Positions 34,541 through 48,651 of a DNA stretch of 64,000 bases are shown here, piece by piece. The translations under genes were made by a program, and so were the position numbers. The stretch is from Iphinoe sp. HA4291-MV1 (GTDB taxonomy: Bacteria; Cyanobacteriota; Cyanobacteriia; Cyanobacteriales; Nostocaceae). The stretch spans positions 1 to 64,000 of the forward strand of contig JAHHHH010000020.1 of assembly GCA_019359415.1 (NCBI GenBank), written 5' to 3'. The notes beneath the pieces are model-generated. The model did not search any database and was not told the DNA's origin. It saw only the letters and a list, made by a program, of their open reading frames with translations. Within the stretch, counting starts at the first letter, position 1; each line of letters starts with the position of its first letter.

Positions 34541-35527
34541 TCACTCAGTTGCGATATCTTCTGCAATAGTCTTCATCTCTGCCTTATCAGATCCCCTACC
34601 GGATTTCGCGAGATATATACCAACCAAAACTACGAAAAAAGCCAACAAGTTAAACAGACTTAAGTGTTCAGCAAAGATGACCCAGGCAAGAATTGTAGTA
34701 ATAATCGGCTCAAGTAGAAGGAACAGAGAAGCAAACCCTGAGGAGAACTGCTTGAGGCTATAAGCGAGAATCCCCGAACCGATCACTTGGCAGAAAAGAG
34801 CTAGGCAAAACACTGGTAACCATCCCTCCACCGAAGAAGGGAAAAGTCGCTCTTCAGTGAATGCAGCGACTGGAAACGTCAAAAAACTTCTGATCAAACA
34901 AGACCACAGTAGTATGCTTGTGGTGGAAAACTTGACTCTCAGTTTTTCTGCCGCTAGCAGACCCCCCGCATAGAATACAGCAGAAAGTAAAGCCAAAGCA
35001 TCACCGATAAGTTGATCAGCAGCGATTTGCGAATCTTGAATGCCAATGGCGATCGCTCCCCCTATGGCTAGAAGCATACCCATGAGAAATCTGCGATCAA
35101 AGTAGTGACCCAACAGCACCCACCCCCCCAGAGTGGCGAAAATTGGGGTCAAATTATGCAGTAAATTCGAGTTAGCAACGTTAGTTTGAGTCAGAGACCA
35201 AGCCCAGGAAATATGAGACATGGGAATTACAGTACTCCATACTAGCAACATCACTAGATCGCGAATTGTGTAATTCTGCTTTTGCGGGGGGGAGTCTCGG
35301 GACAGTCGAGAACCCATAGCCCTGATACCCCTCCACAATCCAAGGATGACAGTAGCTATCCAAAAGCGATTGAAAACTGTGGCATTAGGACCGATATACT
35401 GTTCGCTTAATTTGATAAAGATTGCTGCTAGGGACAGGGTAAATACCCCTATGATTAATAAGGTAAGCAGCATCAGAGTTGATAATGAATCTGTTTGTTG
35501 CTGTGGCGCTTCTAGTGTATTAGTCAT
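34541..35527 (-). CDS. EamA/DMT-family transporter
   Basis: About 328 residues from the Met ending at 35527 (MTNTLEAPQQQTD). There are ten hydrophobic helices in two EamA repeats (SLAAIFIKLSEQYIGPNATV; LLSAVFYAGGLLAAEKLR; LLEPIITTILAWVIFAEHLS). DMT carriers export amino acids and other metabolites. It lies next to the M20 hydrolase and the halogenase-type genes on the same strand, so it may export their product; that link is inference. Confidence 0.9.
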   Translation of the reverse strand: MTNTLEAPQQQTDSLSTLMLLTLLIIGVFTLSLAAIFIKLSEQYIGPNATVFNRFWIATVILGLWRGIRAMGSRLSRDSPPQKQNYTIRDLVMLLVWSTVIPMSHISWAWSLTQTNVANSNLLHNLTPIFATLGGWVLLGHYFDRRFLMGMLLAIGGAIAIGIQDSQIAADQLIGDALALLSAVFYAGGLLAAEKLRVKFSTTSILLWSCLIRSFLTFPVAAFTEERLFPSSVEGWLPVFCLALFCQVIGSGILAYSLKQFSSGFASLFLLLEPIITTILAWVIFAEHLSLFNLLAFFVVLVGIYLAKSGRGSDKAEMKTIAEDIATE

Positions 35528-35719
35528 ATTTGTTGTGTTGCAAAAACTTTTTGAGAACAGCCGTGGAATAATGTAGCACTTTGTCAATGAGTAAGAAATC
35601 TATTAATAGAGTTACCCGAAAGTTTAAGCAACAAATGAGAAAATTATGATCTGAGTTTAAAGACTCAAAATTCTTAGAAATGGTGTATTAAGAAACACAT
35701 CCATAAATTCATCCATAAA

Positions 35720-36904
35720 TTAAATATGTTTGCCCTGAAAGTACTGACAAACGCTATAAGCTAAGGTCATAACACCTGCTAGAATTGAGGTCTCATCAAC
35801 ATCAAACTTTGGGTGATGCAAAGGATAATTATATTTGTCTTTGTATCCAACTCCCAAGCGGAACATAGCACCGGGGACATAGTTGAGATACTCAGCAAAA
35901 TCCTCTGAACCTAACGAGGGATCTGGCAAAACTTGAACATAATCATTTCCTAATGCCTCAGTGGCTGCTCTCTCTAGCAATTGAGTCAGTTCTGGATAAT
36001 TGACAACTGAAGGCATTGAGTGATGATAGTGTAATTCATACTCAGCTCCATAAGCATGGCAAACTCCAGCGACAACTTGCTCAACCCATTCTGCTAACCT
36101 AGCCCGTACCTCTGGATGGAGAGTACGTGCTGTCCCTACCAACTTAACTCTGTCTGCAATTGTATTAGAGTTATATCCACCACGGATTTTCCCAATTGTG
36201 AGAACTACCGGACGTTGTGGATCCTGCATCCGACTAATTGCTTGCTGAAGGCTAATGATAACTTGGGACGCTACCCAGATAGCATCTACCCCCTGTTTGG
36301 GATTACCCGCATCGGCTGCTTGACCTATAATTGTGATTTCCACACTATCCAACGATGCTGTCAGAGAGCCATATCTGATGCCAACGGAACCAGCGGGGAT
36401 TGTCGGAAATACGTGCAGACTAAGGATGGCGGAGACATTTTCTAAAGCCTTATTTTTAATCATCCACATAGCCCCTTGACCAATTTCCTCCGCTGGCTGA
36501 AATATAAAGCGAACATTGCCTGGTATCTGCTCTTTGAGATGAGATAGTACCATAGCCGTGCCCAAGCCAACAGTAGTATGAACATCGTGACCGCAAGCGT
36601 GCATCACTCCCGGAACTTTTGAAGCAAACTCAAGACCAGTTTGCTCGTGAATCGGTAAGGCATCCATATCGACGCGAATAGCTAGCTGTCGGCTGTCTGT
36701 TCCTTGACCTTGTAGTTCTCCGAAAAGACCTGTTTTTCCGACGTTCTCTTGCACGTGCAGCTCGTAAGAACTGAGAACTCCTGCGACAAAAATGGCTGTT
36801 AGGTGTTCCTGTCCACTCAATTCTGGATGGCTGTGGAGATGTCGCCGAATTTCCTTCAGGCGAGGCATAAGTTCTTCAGCGATTTGTTTAATTTCAGTTA
36901 GCAC
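35720..36904 (-). CDS. M20 metallo-amidohydrolase (N-acyl amino acid hydrolase)
   Basis: A 394-residue zinc peptidase-family amidohydrolase of the hippurate/IAA-amino acid hydrolase group. Metal-site motifs: HACGHDVHT (about 104-112), PAEEIGQGA (about 137-145), and LGSEDFAEYL near the C-terminus. The GTG start at 36904 overlaps the TAG stop of the GNAT gene by one base, so the two are translationally coupled. It may remove an acyl group that the acetyltransferase adds, or trim an N-acyl or gamma-glutamyl conjugate. Confidence 0.92.
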   Translation of the reverse strand: MLTEIKQIAEELMPRLKEIRRHLHSHPELSGQEHLTAIFVAGVLSSYELHVQENVGKTGLFGELQGQGTDSRQLAIRVDMDALPIHEQTGLEFASKVPGVMHACGHDVHTTVGLGTAMVLSHLKEQIPGNVRFIFQPAEEIGQGAMWMIKNKALENVSAILSLHVFPTIPAGSVGIRYGSLTASLDSVEITIIGQAADAGNPKQGVDAIWVASQVIISLQQAISRMQDPQRPVVLTIGKIRGGYNSNTIADRVKLVGTARTLHPEVRARLAEWVEQVVAGVCHAYGAEYELHYHHSMPSVVNYPELTQLLERAATEALGNDYVQVLPDPSLGSEDFAEYLNYVPGAMFRLGVGYKDKYNYPLHHPKFDVDETSILAGVMTLAYSVCQYFQGKHI

Positions 36905-37383
36905 TATTGTAATCCCAACTCGAGTTCCTCGTATATCATATAGCCAGTGTCTTTCATACCTAAAGCTTTATAAGTTTTTTGTGCAACAGTATTTTGATGA
37001 TCCACATAAAGTCTAAAACCACAGATTCTTAGTTCATTTTGTTCATTTCTCGCTTTTTCTTTCACAAACTCGTAGAGTTTTCTATAAATCCCTTGACGAC
37101 GAAACTTTGGGTGAACATAGACACTTTGTATCCACCAAAATCTCCCATTTCGCCAGTCGCTCCACTCTGTCGTCACCATCAGAGAAGCAGCGACTTTATC
37201 ATTATTTTCTGCAACAACATAAAAACCAAAATCCGAATTTTTTAACAAAGTTTCTACACCAGCCGTGACAATCTCTAAAGAGAGGTCTTTATCCTCGGTT
37301 TCACGTGCCATTGCTCGATTGAATTCAACTAATACATCTAAATCGTCAGTCTTTGCTAAACGAATTAACAACTTGTTTTCCAC
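36904..37383 (-). CDS. GNAT-family N-acetyltransferase
   Basis: A 159-residue acetyltransferase. Typical motifs are WIQSVYVHPKFRRQGIYRKL (acetyl-CoA pyrophosphate loop R-R-Q-G-I) and LYVDHQNTVAQKTYKALGM. It is the first gene of a coupled pair with the M20 hydrolase. The substrate is unknown; an amino group on a small amino acid is plausible given the neighbours. Confidence 0.9.
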   Translation of the reverse strand: MENKLLIRLAKTDDLDVLVEFNRAMARETEDKDLSLEIVTAGVETLLKNSDFGFYVVAENNDKVAASLMVTTEWSDWRNGRFWWIQSVYVHPKFRRQGIYRKLYEFVKEKARNEQNELRICGFRLYVDHQNTVAQKTYKALGMKDTGYMIYEELELGLQ

Positions 37384-37769: not shown

Positions 37770-39119
37770 GTGAAAAATAAACCATTGCTCACTTATCAAG
37801 ATCTTCTATATTTCTTTCTTAAAAACGAAGCAGTTACTGAGAAAATAGGAATGGAGGTGGAATTAGGTGTAGTCGATCCCAACACGGGAATATCCCTACC
37901 TTACAAGGGAACCAATGGAGCTCGAGCCATACTTGAAGTTTTGATGAAAACTGATAACTGGACTCCCGTTTATGAAGAAAATCTTCTTCTCGGTGTTGTA
38001 CGAGCCGATGGATGTCAAGTAACCTTAGAACCTGGAGGACAAATCGAATATTCATCTCCTCCAGCCAAGGATTTAGTAGAACTTGTCCAGAAGATGCGTC
38101 AAGTCGTTTTGAGCATTGCAGAGGTGGCGCGAGGATTAGGATCTGCCTTGATAGCGGGTAGTATGCTGCCGTTCGATAAACCCGAAGATGCCAAATGGGC
38201 ACCGAAGCCACGATTTCAAATGACACTGGATTATTTAGCCAGTTTGGGAATCGATTCGCTGGGTTGGTGTACAATGGCACGAACATTGTCTACACAAGTC
38301 ACCTTTGATTACCTGTCTGAAGATGACATGAATCGAAAGGTGCGAGTTCTTGTAGCAGCAGCGCCTGTGTCTTGTGCTCTTTTCGCTAACTCTCCGATCG
38401 AGGGGGGAGTGCTTGACGGTGTTCTCTCGCATCGAGGAAAGTACTGGCTGAGATTCGATCCAGCACGCTGCGGTTGTATTCCTCCAGCTTTGAGTGGTTC
38501 GATGACTTTCAATGACTATATCCAATGGGCGATGGAAATTCCGATGATTGCTTCTATGGTTAACGGAGTTTGTCAACCGATGTATGGACGCCCCTTTTCT
38601 TCAGTATTAAATAGTGGCTTTGATGATGGAAGCCAACCGACATTTGATAACTGGCGTGCTCACTTCTCATCTATTTACACTGATATTCGCTTGCGCGATA
38701 CTATTGAAGTTCGTGCGATGGATGGACTAGCTTTTGAACACATACCCTCTGCCTGTGCTTTTTGGACTGGACTGGCTTATCATCAACCCTCTATTGAATC
38801 CTTGTGGAAACTATTAGAAAATCGAACGCTTGAAGACTATCAAACAGCACAAGCTGAAGTTTGCGTTAAAGGATTAAAAGCAAGGTATGGTGAAGACTCG
38901 GTTCAAGACTTAGCGATAGAAATGGTGAAGCTTGCAAAACTTGGGCTAGAAGCACGAGTGAATGCACAGCTTGAACATCCAGAAGTCTTAAGTTACCTTG
39001 AGCCTCTAGAAGAAGTTGCTTTTTCCGGTCAAACTTTTGCAGAACGTCTGATTGAGAAGTGGAAAGGTGAGTTGCAATTTTCTCGCGATCGCTATGTAGA
39101 AGCTTATCGAATCAATTAG
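37770..39119 (+). CDS. GCS2-type glutamate-amino acid ligase (GshA/EgtA-like)
   Basis: A 449-residue ATP-dependent gamma-glutamyl ligase of the GCS2 (plant/EgtA) class. It has the N-terminal GMEVELGVVDPNTG, ADGCQVTLEPGGQIEYSSPP at about 94-113, QVTFDYLSEDDMNRKVRVL and IEVRAMDGLAFEHIPSACAF. The GTG start has AGGAG about 8 bases upstream (37760-37764). The usual cyanobacterial GshA is a different, shorter type, so this is probably a specialised ligase. It faces a heme-oxygenase-like enzyme and a halogenase-type enzyme, which suggests that Glu is joined to a modified amino acid. Cysteine as substrate is not excluded. Confidence 0.86.
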   Translation: MKNKPLLTYQDLLYFFLKNEAVTEKIGMEVELGVVDPNTGISLPYKGTNGARAILEVLMKTDNWTPVYEENLLLGVVRADGCQVTLEPGGQIEYSSPPAKDLVELVQKMRQVVLSIAEVARGLGSALIAGSMLPFDKPEDAKWAPKPRFQMTLDYLASLGIDSLGWCTMARTLSTQVTFDYLSEDDMNRKVRVLVAAAPVSCALFANSPIEGGVLDGVLSHRGKYWLRFDPARCGCIPPALSGSMTFNDYIQWAMEIPMIASMVNGVCQPMYGRPFSSVLNSGFDDGSQPTFDNWRAHFSSIYTDIRLRDTIEVRAMDGLAFEHIPSACAFWTGLAYHQPSIESLWKLLENRTLEDYQTAQAEVCVKGLKARYGEDSVQDLAIEMVKLAKLGLEARVNAQLEHPEVLSYLEPLEEVAFSGQTFAERLIEKWKGELQFSRDRYVEAYRIN

Positions 39120-39136
39120 GACTTATTTTCAAGAAG

Positions 39137-39217
39137 TGAGCAGACAGCCCTAAAATATGCATAACATTGCAAAGATGCTTGAGTGCTTCTTTTATGTCTT
39201 TTGGGGCTAACTGCTCA
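39137..39217. terminator. Shared hairpin between convergent genes
   Basis: Arms TGAGCAGACAGCCC (39137-39150) and GGGCTAACTGCTCA (39204-39217) pair at 12 of 14 positions across the gap between the ligase and diiron-enzyme genes. A long loop makes it a moderate candidate. Confidence 0.5.
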
Positions 39218-39244
39218 TCCCGACTTCTTTAACTGTTTTAAAAC

Positions 39245-39997
39245 CTATGTTTGATTGCCTAAAAGAAGCGCCTCAACACCATCCCAATAAGTTGCTACAA
39301 GTTCTAGGAATCCATTCATCCCTTTCTCAAATAACTCTCTGGTATCCTGTTCACTAATGTAAGGAGAGATAGCATTGAAAACGTTGTTGCTGTGTCCCAC
39401 TTCCACATTGATATGAATCAGCCAGAAATTCCTGAGCTTCTTATCATACTCCTGGTTCTCTAGCCCATCGTTTAACTTAGAAACCATCGTAGCAGACATA
39501 GTTTCATCAGCATACAAGGCTCCCAAACATTTCTCAATCGGCGGCTCAGTGTAAAGCTTCATAATACCTTGGTTGAGTGCCGTTGTGGTGGGCAAACATT
39601 TGTAATTCTCAAACTCTTCGTTGGTAATCCCAATTTGGTGTAGAAAATCCCTGTAAATCATTGAATGAGTCACCTTGCTCCCAACTTCATCAATGACATT
39701 GAGGATCACTTCCCGCAGGATATTCTCATCTCTAGTATGTAAAGCCATACCAGTGATATAAAAAGGAAGATACTGGAAGAAGTAGAAACACTCTAGGAAA
39801 AGCTTCTTTTCTTGTTCTTTGGTTAGCTTGTTCTTTCTGTAGTAGTTAAGAAAAGGATGCTCTACTGCTCGGTGAGCCAAAATGTATTCAATTTGCTCAT
39901 CAAGATACTTTTTAGTCTCTTGATTATCCAGCTTGACTCGTTTGCGAATATTGGGATCTTCTACTTCTTCAAATCGCTTAATTGTTGTAGATGTCAT
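39245..39997 (-). CDS. Heme-oxygenase-like diiron enzyme (HDO; BesC-like candidate)
   Basis: Starts at the Met ending at 39997, preceded by AAGGAG; the frame reaches 40036 but without support. The 250-residue, all-helical protein keeps a full set of candidate diiron ligands: Glu69 (FLECF), Glu104 and His111 (NVIDEVGSKVTH), and His195, Glu199, His202 (HINVEVGH). This is the pattern of heme-oxygenase-like diiron oxidases and lyases such as BesC, UndA and SznF. BesC cleaves 4-chlorolysine to chloroallylglycine. Its place 64 bp after a BesD-like gene makes a BesC role likely, though not proven. Confidence 0.8.
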   Translation of the reverse strand: MTSTTIKRFEEVEDPNIRKRVKLDNQETKKYLDEQIEYILAHRAVEHPFLNYYRKNKLTKEQEKKLFLECFYFFQYLPFYITGMALHTRDENILREVILNVIDEVGSKVTHSMIYRDFLHQIGITNEEFENYKCLPTTTALNQGIMKLYTEPPIEKCLGALYADETMSATMVSKLNDGLENQEYDKKLRNFWLIHINVEVGHSNNVFNAISPYISEQDTRELFEKGMNGFLELVATYWDGVEALLLGNQT

Positions 39998-40060
39998 TTG
40001 CAAACTCCTTTTCAGCGACGAACTCTTATGAGACACATCTCAAATGAAACTGGAGTAGCT

Positions 40061-40831
40061 TCAGCTATAAACCCCAGCTTCTACTTCTTTTTCAGCCCAC
40101 CATCTATCGTTGGTGATCATTTGCTTCTTCAGATCGTCTTCACATCCCCAAGTCATATTAATCATGATTCTGATTGCATCGTGATTCAGAGGAACTGTGC
40201 GATGGAGAGTCGTATCTGCTTTTAAAAAGTAGATGTCGCCACTCACAAAACCATAAGTTTTAATGAGATTTTGACATAGATACTCGTGGATTTTTGGATT
40301 AGATTTGTCCCAATTGGTGTGAGGAACACATTGAAGCATACCACCATATTCTGTTGGCGGTGTTTCCAAAATCCAAATTAAAGCAAAACGATAATCTCCC
40401 CAGTGCCATCCATGAGTATCACCACTTTTTTCCTGTCTAGTAATGAGAAATTCTTCATCCTTTGAAGGACATGGCAAAAGGGGTTCACCGGCAAGAGCTT
40501 CGAGAAAGCTCAACAAAGCTTTGGAACGGTATATTGTGTTAATAAATTCACTGTTAGCAGCAATCGTTTCACTGGTCACAACGCTCATCTTTCTTGGAGT
40601 ATTTCCTGTTGTTGCCAGTTTGAGATCTCTGCGTTCTGCATAGAGTTCCAAAAGTCTTAACGCTTCTTCTTTCATAGATTTTCGGATTTCCAAAGGCATA
40701 ACCTCTGGAATCTTGATCACCCCCTCTCTCTTAAATTGATTAGAAAGAAAAGGAAGAGTCTTTTTAGAGTATTTCTCGACAAGATTAGAGCTAATCTTTT
40801 CTTCAGTTTGAGATGAGATAGACAGAACCAT
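40061..40831 (-). CDS. Putative BesD-family Fe(II)/2-oxoglutarate amino-acid halogenase
   Basis: A 256-residue cupin-fold oxygenase. The iron site reads His143-Trp-Gly145 and His210, so the usual carboxylate ligand of HxD is Gly, the mark of radical halogenases, which leaves room for chloride. Against BesD residues as I remember them (R74, E120, H134, H137, G139, D140, H204, N219, T221, W239) this protein has the same residue six positions later every time (R80, E126, H140, H143, G145, D146, H210, N225, T227, W245). These include acidic residues that hold the lysine side-chain amine. It is first in an operon with the diiron enzyme. Substrate lysine or ornithine is inferred. Confidence 0.82.
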   Translation of the reverse strand: MVLSISSQTEEKISSNLVEKYSKKTLPFLSNQFKREGVIKIPEVMPLEIRKSMKEEALRLLELYAERRDLKLATTGNTPRKMSVVTSETIAANSEFINTIYRSKALLSFLEALAGEPLLPCPSKDEEFLITRQEKSGDTHGWHWGDYRFALIWILETPPTEYGGMLQCVPHTNWDKSNPKIHEYLCQNLIKTYGFVSGDIYFLKADTTLHRTVPLNHDAIRIMINMTWGCEDDLKKQMITNDRWWAEKEVEAGVYS

Positions 40832-47469: not shown

Positions 47470-48651
47470 TATCGGCTCAATAATCAGGGGTAGGCAGTTA
47501 TTCCGTCTGCCACGACCAACCAAACAGATTAGGAGCAGTCTTGTTCCGAATTATTTGAGCTAGGGACTCTATATTTTCAGTTCGAGTGATGCGGTCGCGC
47601 AGGTATTCAAAAAAACTAACCCCCAACTTACGAGTCGTAGCGACAAGGGACATAAAAGTATCCCAAGCCTTGGTTCCATCTGAAGTCTGAGTGCCATAGC
47701 TAATATTACGTCGCAGCACCATTGTCCTGGCTCCAAGTTCAGCCGGATTATTATGTAACGGAAGTTCGGGGTGTTCTAAGACTAACAACAACTCCTCCAT
47801 TTTTGCGGCGGTTAATCGTTTTCGTTCATCCAACTCCTCATAAGCACTCTTAGTGCTGAAAATTTCCCAAAACTCAGACCGCAGTTTCTGGGAAGCTTCA
47901 TTGCTTGGAGCATCCCGGTAAGCCAATAATTCTCGGTAGTAATCCCAGAAGGATTTGAGAAATTCGTCTAAAAGCTTTTGATGATAAGCCACAACAGGAC
48001 TCAATTTTTTGTAGTGTCGTCCTTCATGTACCCAACACAAAGCCAACTGTGCAGTCAGTAATTTGAATTGAGGAGCATCGTCACATACGAGAGCTTGCAC
48101 CAAAGGCCAATCAGTTTGCTGGTGATCATAAGCGATCGCTGCTGCTTCCAAAATACGGGTACGTTGTTGAGAGCCGAGTTTGGGTAGATGGTGATCGAGT
48201 AGGGTATTAAACTCTAAATTTCTGAACTTAGTTTCTTGGGGGAAGAGTTTCAGAGACTTGTGGAATTTTTGGGGAATTTGGAAAGCCTCTAATAGGTCGT
48301 ATGTGAGTGGATTGAGAACAAACTGGAGTTCTCGCTCGTTTTGTAATCCCTTAAGAGCGTTTAATTTCTGGTTTCCCCTGTTCCCCTTTGAGACGGTTGT
48401 TTTCGTCCCTTAAGCGTTGGTTCTCGGAACGCAAGTCCTTGACTTCTGATTTTAATTCTTCTATCAGGTTCAGTAATATCTCTACAGTCTGACGCAAAGA
48501 TTCGTCTGCAATCTTGTTTGGGTCGATGGTTTGCAGGAGCTTATCTACTGGTGTCTGTGTTAACTGCTTTTGCGTCATGTGTCATATTCTATAATGCCGC
48601 GACCTCTAATATCATCATTTTCTTGCGCTACCCCTACTTATTGAGCCGATA
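47470..48651 (-). mobile_element. IS66-family element with internal deletion
   Basis: Terminal inverted repeats TATCGGCTCAATAATCAGGG plus GTAG (47470-47493) and the complement of 48628-48651 match at 22 of 24 positions. The element is 1.18 kb, short for single-ORF IS66 copies, because the middle of the transposase is missing. I found no clear 8-bp target duplication. Confidence 0.75.
47498..48578 (-). pseudogene. IS66 transposase, internally deleted and frameshifted
   Basis: The N-terminal piece (48351-48578; MTQKQLTQTPVDKLLQT and a coiled coil) ends KPEIK. The frame then changes near 48351-48380 and resumes as the C-terminal DDE portion (HLPKLGSQQRTRILEAA, LVCDDAPQFKLL, CWVHEGRHYKKLSP, LPLHNNPAELGARTM, GTKAWDTFMSL). 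The zinc-finger and first catalytic region, roughly 250 residues, is gone. It cannot transpose by itself. Confidence 0.85.

Follow-up and report, generated by a model that had tools for sequence, protein, structure and literature searches.

A predicted BesD/BesC-type lysine chlorination locus in the cyanobacterium Iphinoe sp. HA4291-MV1, and a second, differently partnered besD-besC pair in the same genome

Does a cyanobacterium carry the enzymes to chlorinate free lysine and then to cleave the chlorolysine, leaving an amino acid with a vinyl chloride side chain? This question is raised by three genes in a 64,000-nucleotide stretch of Iphinoe sp. HA4291-MV1 (assembly GCA_019359415.1, contig JAHHHH010000020.1, positions 1 to 64,000; hereafter the window), whose genome comprises 7.36 Mb in 140 contigs with a completeness of 95.35% (G000). 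A first reading based on the sequence alone (the sequence-only reading) had proposed a BesD-like halogenase gene, a BesC-like gene in the same operon and a convergent GCS2-type ligase gene, and the three open reading frames (ORFs) were found exactly where it had placed them (Table 1). As argued here, the window probably encodes a Bes-like pathway to a chlorinated non-protein amino acid, and the genome is predicted to hold two different gene sets for lysine chlorination and cleavage to a chlorinated vinyl amino acid, the two sets having separate tailoring enzymes.

Among solved structures, the nearest to the 40061-40831 product is BesD (6NIE; E = 1e-91), which ranks above the other lysine halogenases and the lysine hydroxylase 9oet; identities are 58.0% for 6NIE (134 of 231 aligned positions), 52.0% for the halogenase 9oer, and 47.3% for 9oet. 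The protein matches the HalD model PF23169 at 313.2 bits (cut-off, 26). The metal motif described earlier, H143-W144-G145 with H210, was confirmed in the 256-residue protein; a carboxylate in the metal site was looked for and none was found, the site consisting of His-x-Gly and a second, distal His (H143, G145, H210). Identity with BesD at active-site positions, which the sequence-only reading had claimed for ten, was examined by alignment at an independently chosen set of 15, without any mismatch (R80, E126, H140, H143, G145, D146, I152, H210, R221, N225, T227, D242, R243, W244, and W245). The cyanobacterial besD-besC loci agree throughout, each of their nine rows having these 15 residues; two of the rows are identical. 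The constant +6 offset reported by the sequence-only reading agrees with the BesD numbering H137/H204. Against the chain index used in PMC13244439 (H140/H207), the offset is +3. That source names the lysine, succinate, and iron residues of BesD, and its lysine contacts (E123, D143, D239, R77, H137, and W241) are all conserved in the window protein. It also describes D142G, N149I, and V223N as the changes by which the structurally solved lysine hydroxylase becomes a halogenase, and at these three positions the window protein has the halogenase state (G145, I152, and N225), whereas 9oet has D, N, and V.

In the BesD tree, the nine cyanobacterial rows including the window form one group (97/97) within a 29-row group (100/98) containing 6NIE, 9oer and, beside the latter, 9oet. 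Because the hydroxylase lies inside this 29-row group and the fork between the nine rows and 6NIE is weak (83/50), the halogenase call is carried by the residues and not by the tree; on the residues, a hydroxylase reading was rejected, which the tree does not settle. Fragmentary or misframed sequences (L028, L035, L046, L052, and L053) were left out of the tree, and in the residue table L035, L046, and L053 were unreadable and L052 was readable in part. Altogether, these data support the assignment of the product as a predicted halogenase of the HalD/BesD family.

The next gene encodes a protein related to BesC (7TWA; E = 9e-91, 59 to 60% identity), and the E-values exclude chance as the source of either match. 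It carries all six candidate diiron ligands attributed to it by the sequence-only reading, each of them common to 7TWA: E117, H124, E178, H208, E212, and H215 in the numbering of the 263-residue ORF, including the HX3EX2H motif. The likely ATG start, which gives 250 residues, is preceded by a Shine-Dalgarno-like GGAG and lies 63 bp past the besD stop. Hence, the BesD/BesC reading of the pair is supported by the metal site, the halogenase-state residues, the lysine contacts, and the diiron ligands, and it is likely that both enzymatic steps occur as proposed below.

From these features we infer the activities, the order of steps, the product, and the roles of the GCS2, GNAT, M20, and EamA proteins as follows. 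BesD would convert free lysine to (4R)-4-chloro-L-lysine using Fe(II), 2-oxoglutarate, O2, and chloride, and BesC would then abstract a hydrogen at C4, with fragmentation to L-4-chloroallylglycine (2-amino-4-chloropent-4-enoate), formaldehyde, and ammonia; both reactions have been published for homologues (PMC10187165 and PMC13108848). The GCS2 ligase would most likely link chloroallylglycine to the gamma-carboxyl of glutamate, EamA would export the free or conjugated amino acid, and the GNAT and M20 amidohydrolase may mask and unmask the amine for self-protection. The EamA, M20, and GNAT genes at 34541-37383 are probably part of the besDC cluster.

The end point of this pathway depends on BesB, a pyridoxal phosphate (PLP) enzyme whose absence the sequence-only reading had pointed out. 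This absence was borne out: BesB had no match in the window or genome-wide in G000, in a search in which the Streptomyces cattleya record matched as the positive control. A separate search of G000, also empty, counts for little by itself. Genome-wide, there was likewise no match in six of seven other besDC genomes, and the seventh (G567) gave two 21-bit pieces in one frame, against a cut-off of 800; general PLP relatives were matched, under the cut-off, in 13 of 14 control genomes. As no BesB was found, the vinyl chloride would be expected to be retained as the end point.

The convergent orientation of the GCS2-type ligase gene was confirmed, and its product matches PF04107 at 126.2 bits (cut-off, 21). 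The sequence-only reading had further suggested that this ligase does the gamma-glutamylation that BesA does. That idea stands only in part: BesA is an ATP-grasp ligase, so that GCS2 as a BesA homologue was ruled out and GCS2 could be at most a non-homologous stand-in. We regard the chances that the GCS2 step occurs as proposed as evenly balanced. The most serious alternative, a realistic if minority possibility, is that BesD and BesC make free 4-chloroallylglycine and that GCS2 is an unrelated neighbor, e.g., a second glutamate-cysteine or thiol ligase, with no gamma-glutamyl conjugate formed. The best curated models for the window GCS2 are indeed glutamate-cysteine ligases (TIGR01436, the plant-type enzyme, at 253.9 bits, under its cut-off of 463.15), and a PDB search matched the plant-type glutamate-cysteine ligase (2e-53). 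Several observations favor this alternative and weigh against our reading of the locus: GCS2 shows no resemblance to BesA, the bes-cluster ligase from another family; among the clustered besDC loci it adjoins besDC only in the window, and there on the opposite strand. Our reading is also weakened in that besD and besC were not found in the 20 kb fetched around the GCS2 gene of its only close relative (G278). To these must be added the scores of the pair itself, 342.8 bits for BesD against the NF042920 (NCBIfam BesD equivalog) cut-off of 450 and 350.5 bits for BesC against the NF042919 (BesC equivalog) cut-off of 500. Both proteins are therefore filed as family members and not as curated equivalogs, the halogenase being placed in the HalD/BesD family.

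The distribution of the ligase speaks against an unrelated neighbor. G000 has another GCS2 elsewhere, with a higher Pfam score (190.9 versus 126.2 bits), and close copies of the window GCS2 turned up very seldom among the cyanobacterial genomes surveyed. A first survey had found it in 1 of 30 selected genomes, which hinted that it was absent from all relatives; this was overturned by a survey of 386 cyanobacterial genomes, in which 119 matched at 1e-40 and, beyond the window, a close copy (79%) occurred in G278, of the same family, and nowhere else, the remaining matches being at most 31% identical. The ligase is thus accessory in its distribution. In G278, it again adjoins an EamA exporter, 71% identical to that of the window, and a TauD-type Fe(II)/2-oxoglutarate (Fe/2OG) enzyme (L153:10213-13892). 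As the ligase and a matching EamA are adjacent a second time, they look like a portable module for gamma-glutamyl conjugation and export, and the G278 row may represent a further module of this kind for a gamma-glutamyl amino acid. On a plasmid of Streptomyces sp. NBC_01435 (L152:7406-10359), a gene for a relative with 43% identity to the ligase lies directly 3' of a flavin amine oxidase gene.

A second besD-besC pair, with different partner genes, is located on contig C138 of G000. The window and C138 copies are 78% identical in BesD and 63% in BesC, and the window BesC is 57 to 63% identical to the other cyanobacterial BesC proteins. In the BesC tree, seven other cyanobacterial BesC sequences form a clade (100/99) that excludes the window BesC; the C138 protein was not in this tree, its ligands and identities having been determined separately, and it is 72 to 95% identical to the seven. 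This lineage, hereafter lineage A, comprises C138, Brasilonema, Kamptonema, Cuspidothrix, two Anabaena (L004 and L005 from G072 and G429, with identical BesD and BesC), Oscillatoria, and a Microcoleaceae metagenome-assembled genome (MAG). Its BesC proteins are 48 to 52% identical to 7TWA (seven rows). Among 218 genomes of the host family, 76 matched a BesC query, only 5 of them at 57% or more and the others at 20 to 29% among the matches listed.

At 14 positions, the BesC sequences of the window, of L010, and of the solved enzyme agree while all seven lineage-A rows are fixed for another residue, with L90E, E104Y, F131Q, K187Q, and F204H (window ORF numbering) among the changes; BesD has no such position. 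This contrast suggests that lineage A kept the chlorination step and re-tuned the diiron step, although ordinary divergence along a single branch could account for the changes as well. Around besDC in Brasilonema and Kamptonema (L056 263-14856; L001; L002; L141), we also observed recurring secreted-looking proteins, one with a CxxCH motif, along with galactose-oxidase-like and SnoaL-like proteins. Two large recurring proteins near besDC had no Pfam or NCBIfam match.

Lineage A is accompanied by an amidinotransferase related to arginine:glycine amidinotransferase (AGAT). In Oscillatoria, besD, besC, a methyltransferase gene, and the amidinotransferase gene follow in that order on one strand; in C138, Brasilonema, Cuspidothrix, and Anabaena, the amidinotransferase gene is divergent from that of an EamA exporter, and in Brasilonema and Cuspidothrix it lies on a different contig from besDC. 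The enzyme is 51% identical to human AGAT, and D254, H303, and C407 are kept in all six aligned copies. Each of these copies has Ser at the N300 position of AGAT, and the Oscillatoria copy has Cys at S354. At E 1e-60, 35 of the 218 family genomes matched, the same five besDC genomes at 79 to 80% and the other 213 at 58% or below. The chance of this five-of-five overlap would be 2.6e-10 if the genomes were independent, which they are not. The six assembled besDC genomes behind L001 to L005 and L007 carry the enzyme at 78 to 100% identity to the probe, making 7 of 7 with G000, and 7 of 8 besDC genomes overall with the 3.0-Mb MAG (L006), which gave no match. At 1e-30, no match was found in five cyanobacteria with BesD but without BesC in the stretch fetched (that of L028 ending shortly after the besD fragment), in six other bacteria with BesC (six of the eight non-cyanobacterial BesC loci, L038 and L042 being left out), or in two further controls. 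The methyltransferase gene is present in four clustered loci, and in 2 of the 218 family genomes at 61 to 66%; a third genome matched at 43%. Three genomes have an agmatinase-like gene close to besDC, one copy being assigned by family.

In lineage A, arginine would most likely serve as the donor from which the amidinotransferase amidinates the chlorinated amino acid. Two routes could be envisaged: the group would be placed on the alpha-amine of chloroallylglycine, giving with the methyltransferase a creatine-like product, or on 4-chlorolysine ahead of the BesC step. We tentatively propose, at somewhat less than even confidence, that cyanobacteria have two chlorolysine pathways, a window type with gamma-glutamylation by GCS2 and a lineage-A type (at least 7 genomes) with a guanidino product and a BesC pocket re-tuned for another substrate. 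The guanidino product of this proposal, creatine-like or chlorohomoarginine-derived, with a methyltransferase in some of the genomes, is put forward with similar reserve.

Alternatively, both besDC pairs of G000 could feed one product, finished as a guanidino compound by the amidinotransferase and methyltransferase of the second locus, the window pair being a spare copy. G000 does have a single copy of the besDC-linked amidinotransferase subfamily, and the GNAT and EamA of the window have homologues next to the amidinotransferase in other loci (GNAT, 59 to 64% in the Anabaena and Cuspidothrix loci; EamA, 50 to 51% in five lineage-A loci). We nevertheless consider this unlikely: the clade formed by the other cyanobacterial BesC proteins does not include the window BesC, which is as near to the S. 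cattleya type (59 to 60%) as to them (57 to 63%), and the window EamA is closest to the GCS2-linked EamA of G278 and not to that of lineage A. Finally, it is very improbable that the window Fe/2OG enzyme acts as a hydroxylase or as a halogenase of a different amino acid, for example ornithine, which family enzymes also take (PMC8407142). Although 9oet shares its tree group and two cyanobacterial relatives, L066 (G385) and L068 (G213), carry a His-x-Asp metal site and are likely hydroxylases near the halogenase family, the window protein matches BesD at Gly145, Ile152, Asn225, and those lysine contacts that were compared, and a BesC-like gene is adjacent.

Table 1. Genes of the window cluster (predicted functions) and of the second besD-besC pair
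Feature	Coordinates	Strand	Remarks
besD-like gene, Fe(II)/2OG halogenase (HalD/BesD family), predicted substrate free lysine	40061..40831	-	256 aa
besC-like gene, heme-oxygenase-like diiron oxidase	39245..40036	-	ORF opens with GTG 40036; likely start ATG 39997
GCS2-family carboxylate-amine (gamma-glutamyl) ligase	37770..39119	+	449 aa; convergent with besDC
GNAT N-acetyltransferase	36904..37383	-	PF00583
M20 amidohydrolase	35720..36904	-	TIGR01891, 392 bits (cut-off, 153.75)
EamA exporter	34541..35587	-	PF00892; likely start ATG ~35527
Second besD-besC pair with EamA, class I methyltransferase, and AGAT/SxtG-like amidinotransferase	L056:14977-16149, L056:16997-19028, L055:1435-3212		Contig C138

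No homologue of the M20 amidohydrolase was found in the other clustered besDC loci. An IS66-type transposase fragment lies near the cluster (window 47498-48151). Gene calls in GC-rich loci are longest ORFs and unreliable; our conclusions draw on the positions of matches and on cyanobacterial loci, which are AT-rich.

Other halogenase loci proved to be of different types. Those of Streptomyces palmae (L021) and Catenulispora (L016) were considered as bes-type clusters and rejected, having no BesC match and different neighbors. In these loci (L016 7248-11413 and L021 1137-7150), HalB-like lysine halogenase genes lie beside genes that by eye resemble those for QueC, QueE, and an ATP-grasp ligase, which suggests a 7-deazapurine-linked chlorolysine as the product. 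Another halogenase cluster type is seen at 14 Pseudomonas, Paraburkholderia, and Legionella loci (L008, L009, L011-L015, L017-L020, L029, L045, and L047), where two genes come after the halogenase match, a conserved one of ~440 aa and one of ~200 aa, the latter resembling by eye a LysE-type exporter.

Our literature search found no paper on cyanobacterial BesD or BesC, with BesD literature covered incompletely, so that an earlier mention is possible. The reactions are already known, whereas the papers found give no account of the host group, the ligase exchange, the lack of BesB, or the branch with the amidinotransferase. The genera bearing besDC include known bloom formers. If our reading is true, cyanobacteria produce small vinyl amino acids bearing chlorine, and possibly guanidino compounds that are chlorinated too, none of which was reported in the literature searched, and the phylum can now be screened for this predicted metabolite family. 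The two diverged BesC lineages, combined with a BesD lacking lineage-fixed changes, would also constitute a natural experiment on substrate choice in heme-oxygenase-like diiron enzymes, the determinants of which are poorly known (PMC13108848). Moreover, the cyanobacterial enzymes provide new sequences for biocatalytic C-H chlorination.

The closest known system is the bes cluster of Streptomyces (Streptantibioticus) cattleya (L151, on pSCATT), which makes beta-ethynylserine. Both clusters have adjacent besD and besC and a nearby EamA-family exporter, with identities of 58% for BesD, 59 to 60% for BesC, and only 18% for EamA; both also have an amino-acid-glutamate ligase, that of the window being a candidate. 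They differ in that S. cattleya has BesB (NF042918, 945 bits; cut-off, 800) and no BesB was found here, that GCS2 stands where S. cattleya has the ATP-grasp BesA (NF042917, 881.6 bits; cut-off, 750), and that GNAT and M20 are extra in the window. Neither BesA nor the Fe/2OG gene beside besD in S. cattleya, which we take to be BesE, found a counterpart when the window and 40 kb of contig C138 were searched; the rest of G000 was searched for neither. Compared to the HalD/BesD free amino acid halogenases (PF23169; structures of BesD, HalB, and HalD), the window protein shares the family match, the His-x-Gly site, and the C-terminal D-R-W-W seen in BesD, and differs by its cyanobacterial host, its partner genes, and its score under the BesD equivalog cut-off. 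As for the second pair, its amidinotransferase resembles the AGAT/SxtG family in overall identity and in the three residues named above, whereas the besDC-linked enzymes form a subfamily of their own (76 to 94% identical within it), seen only in besDC-bearing genomes.

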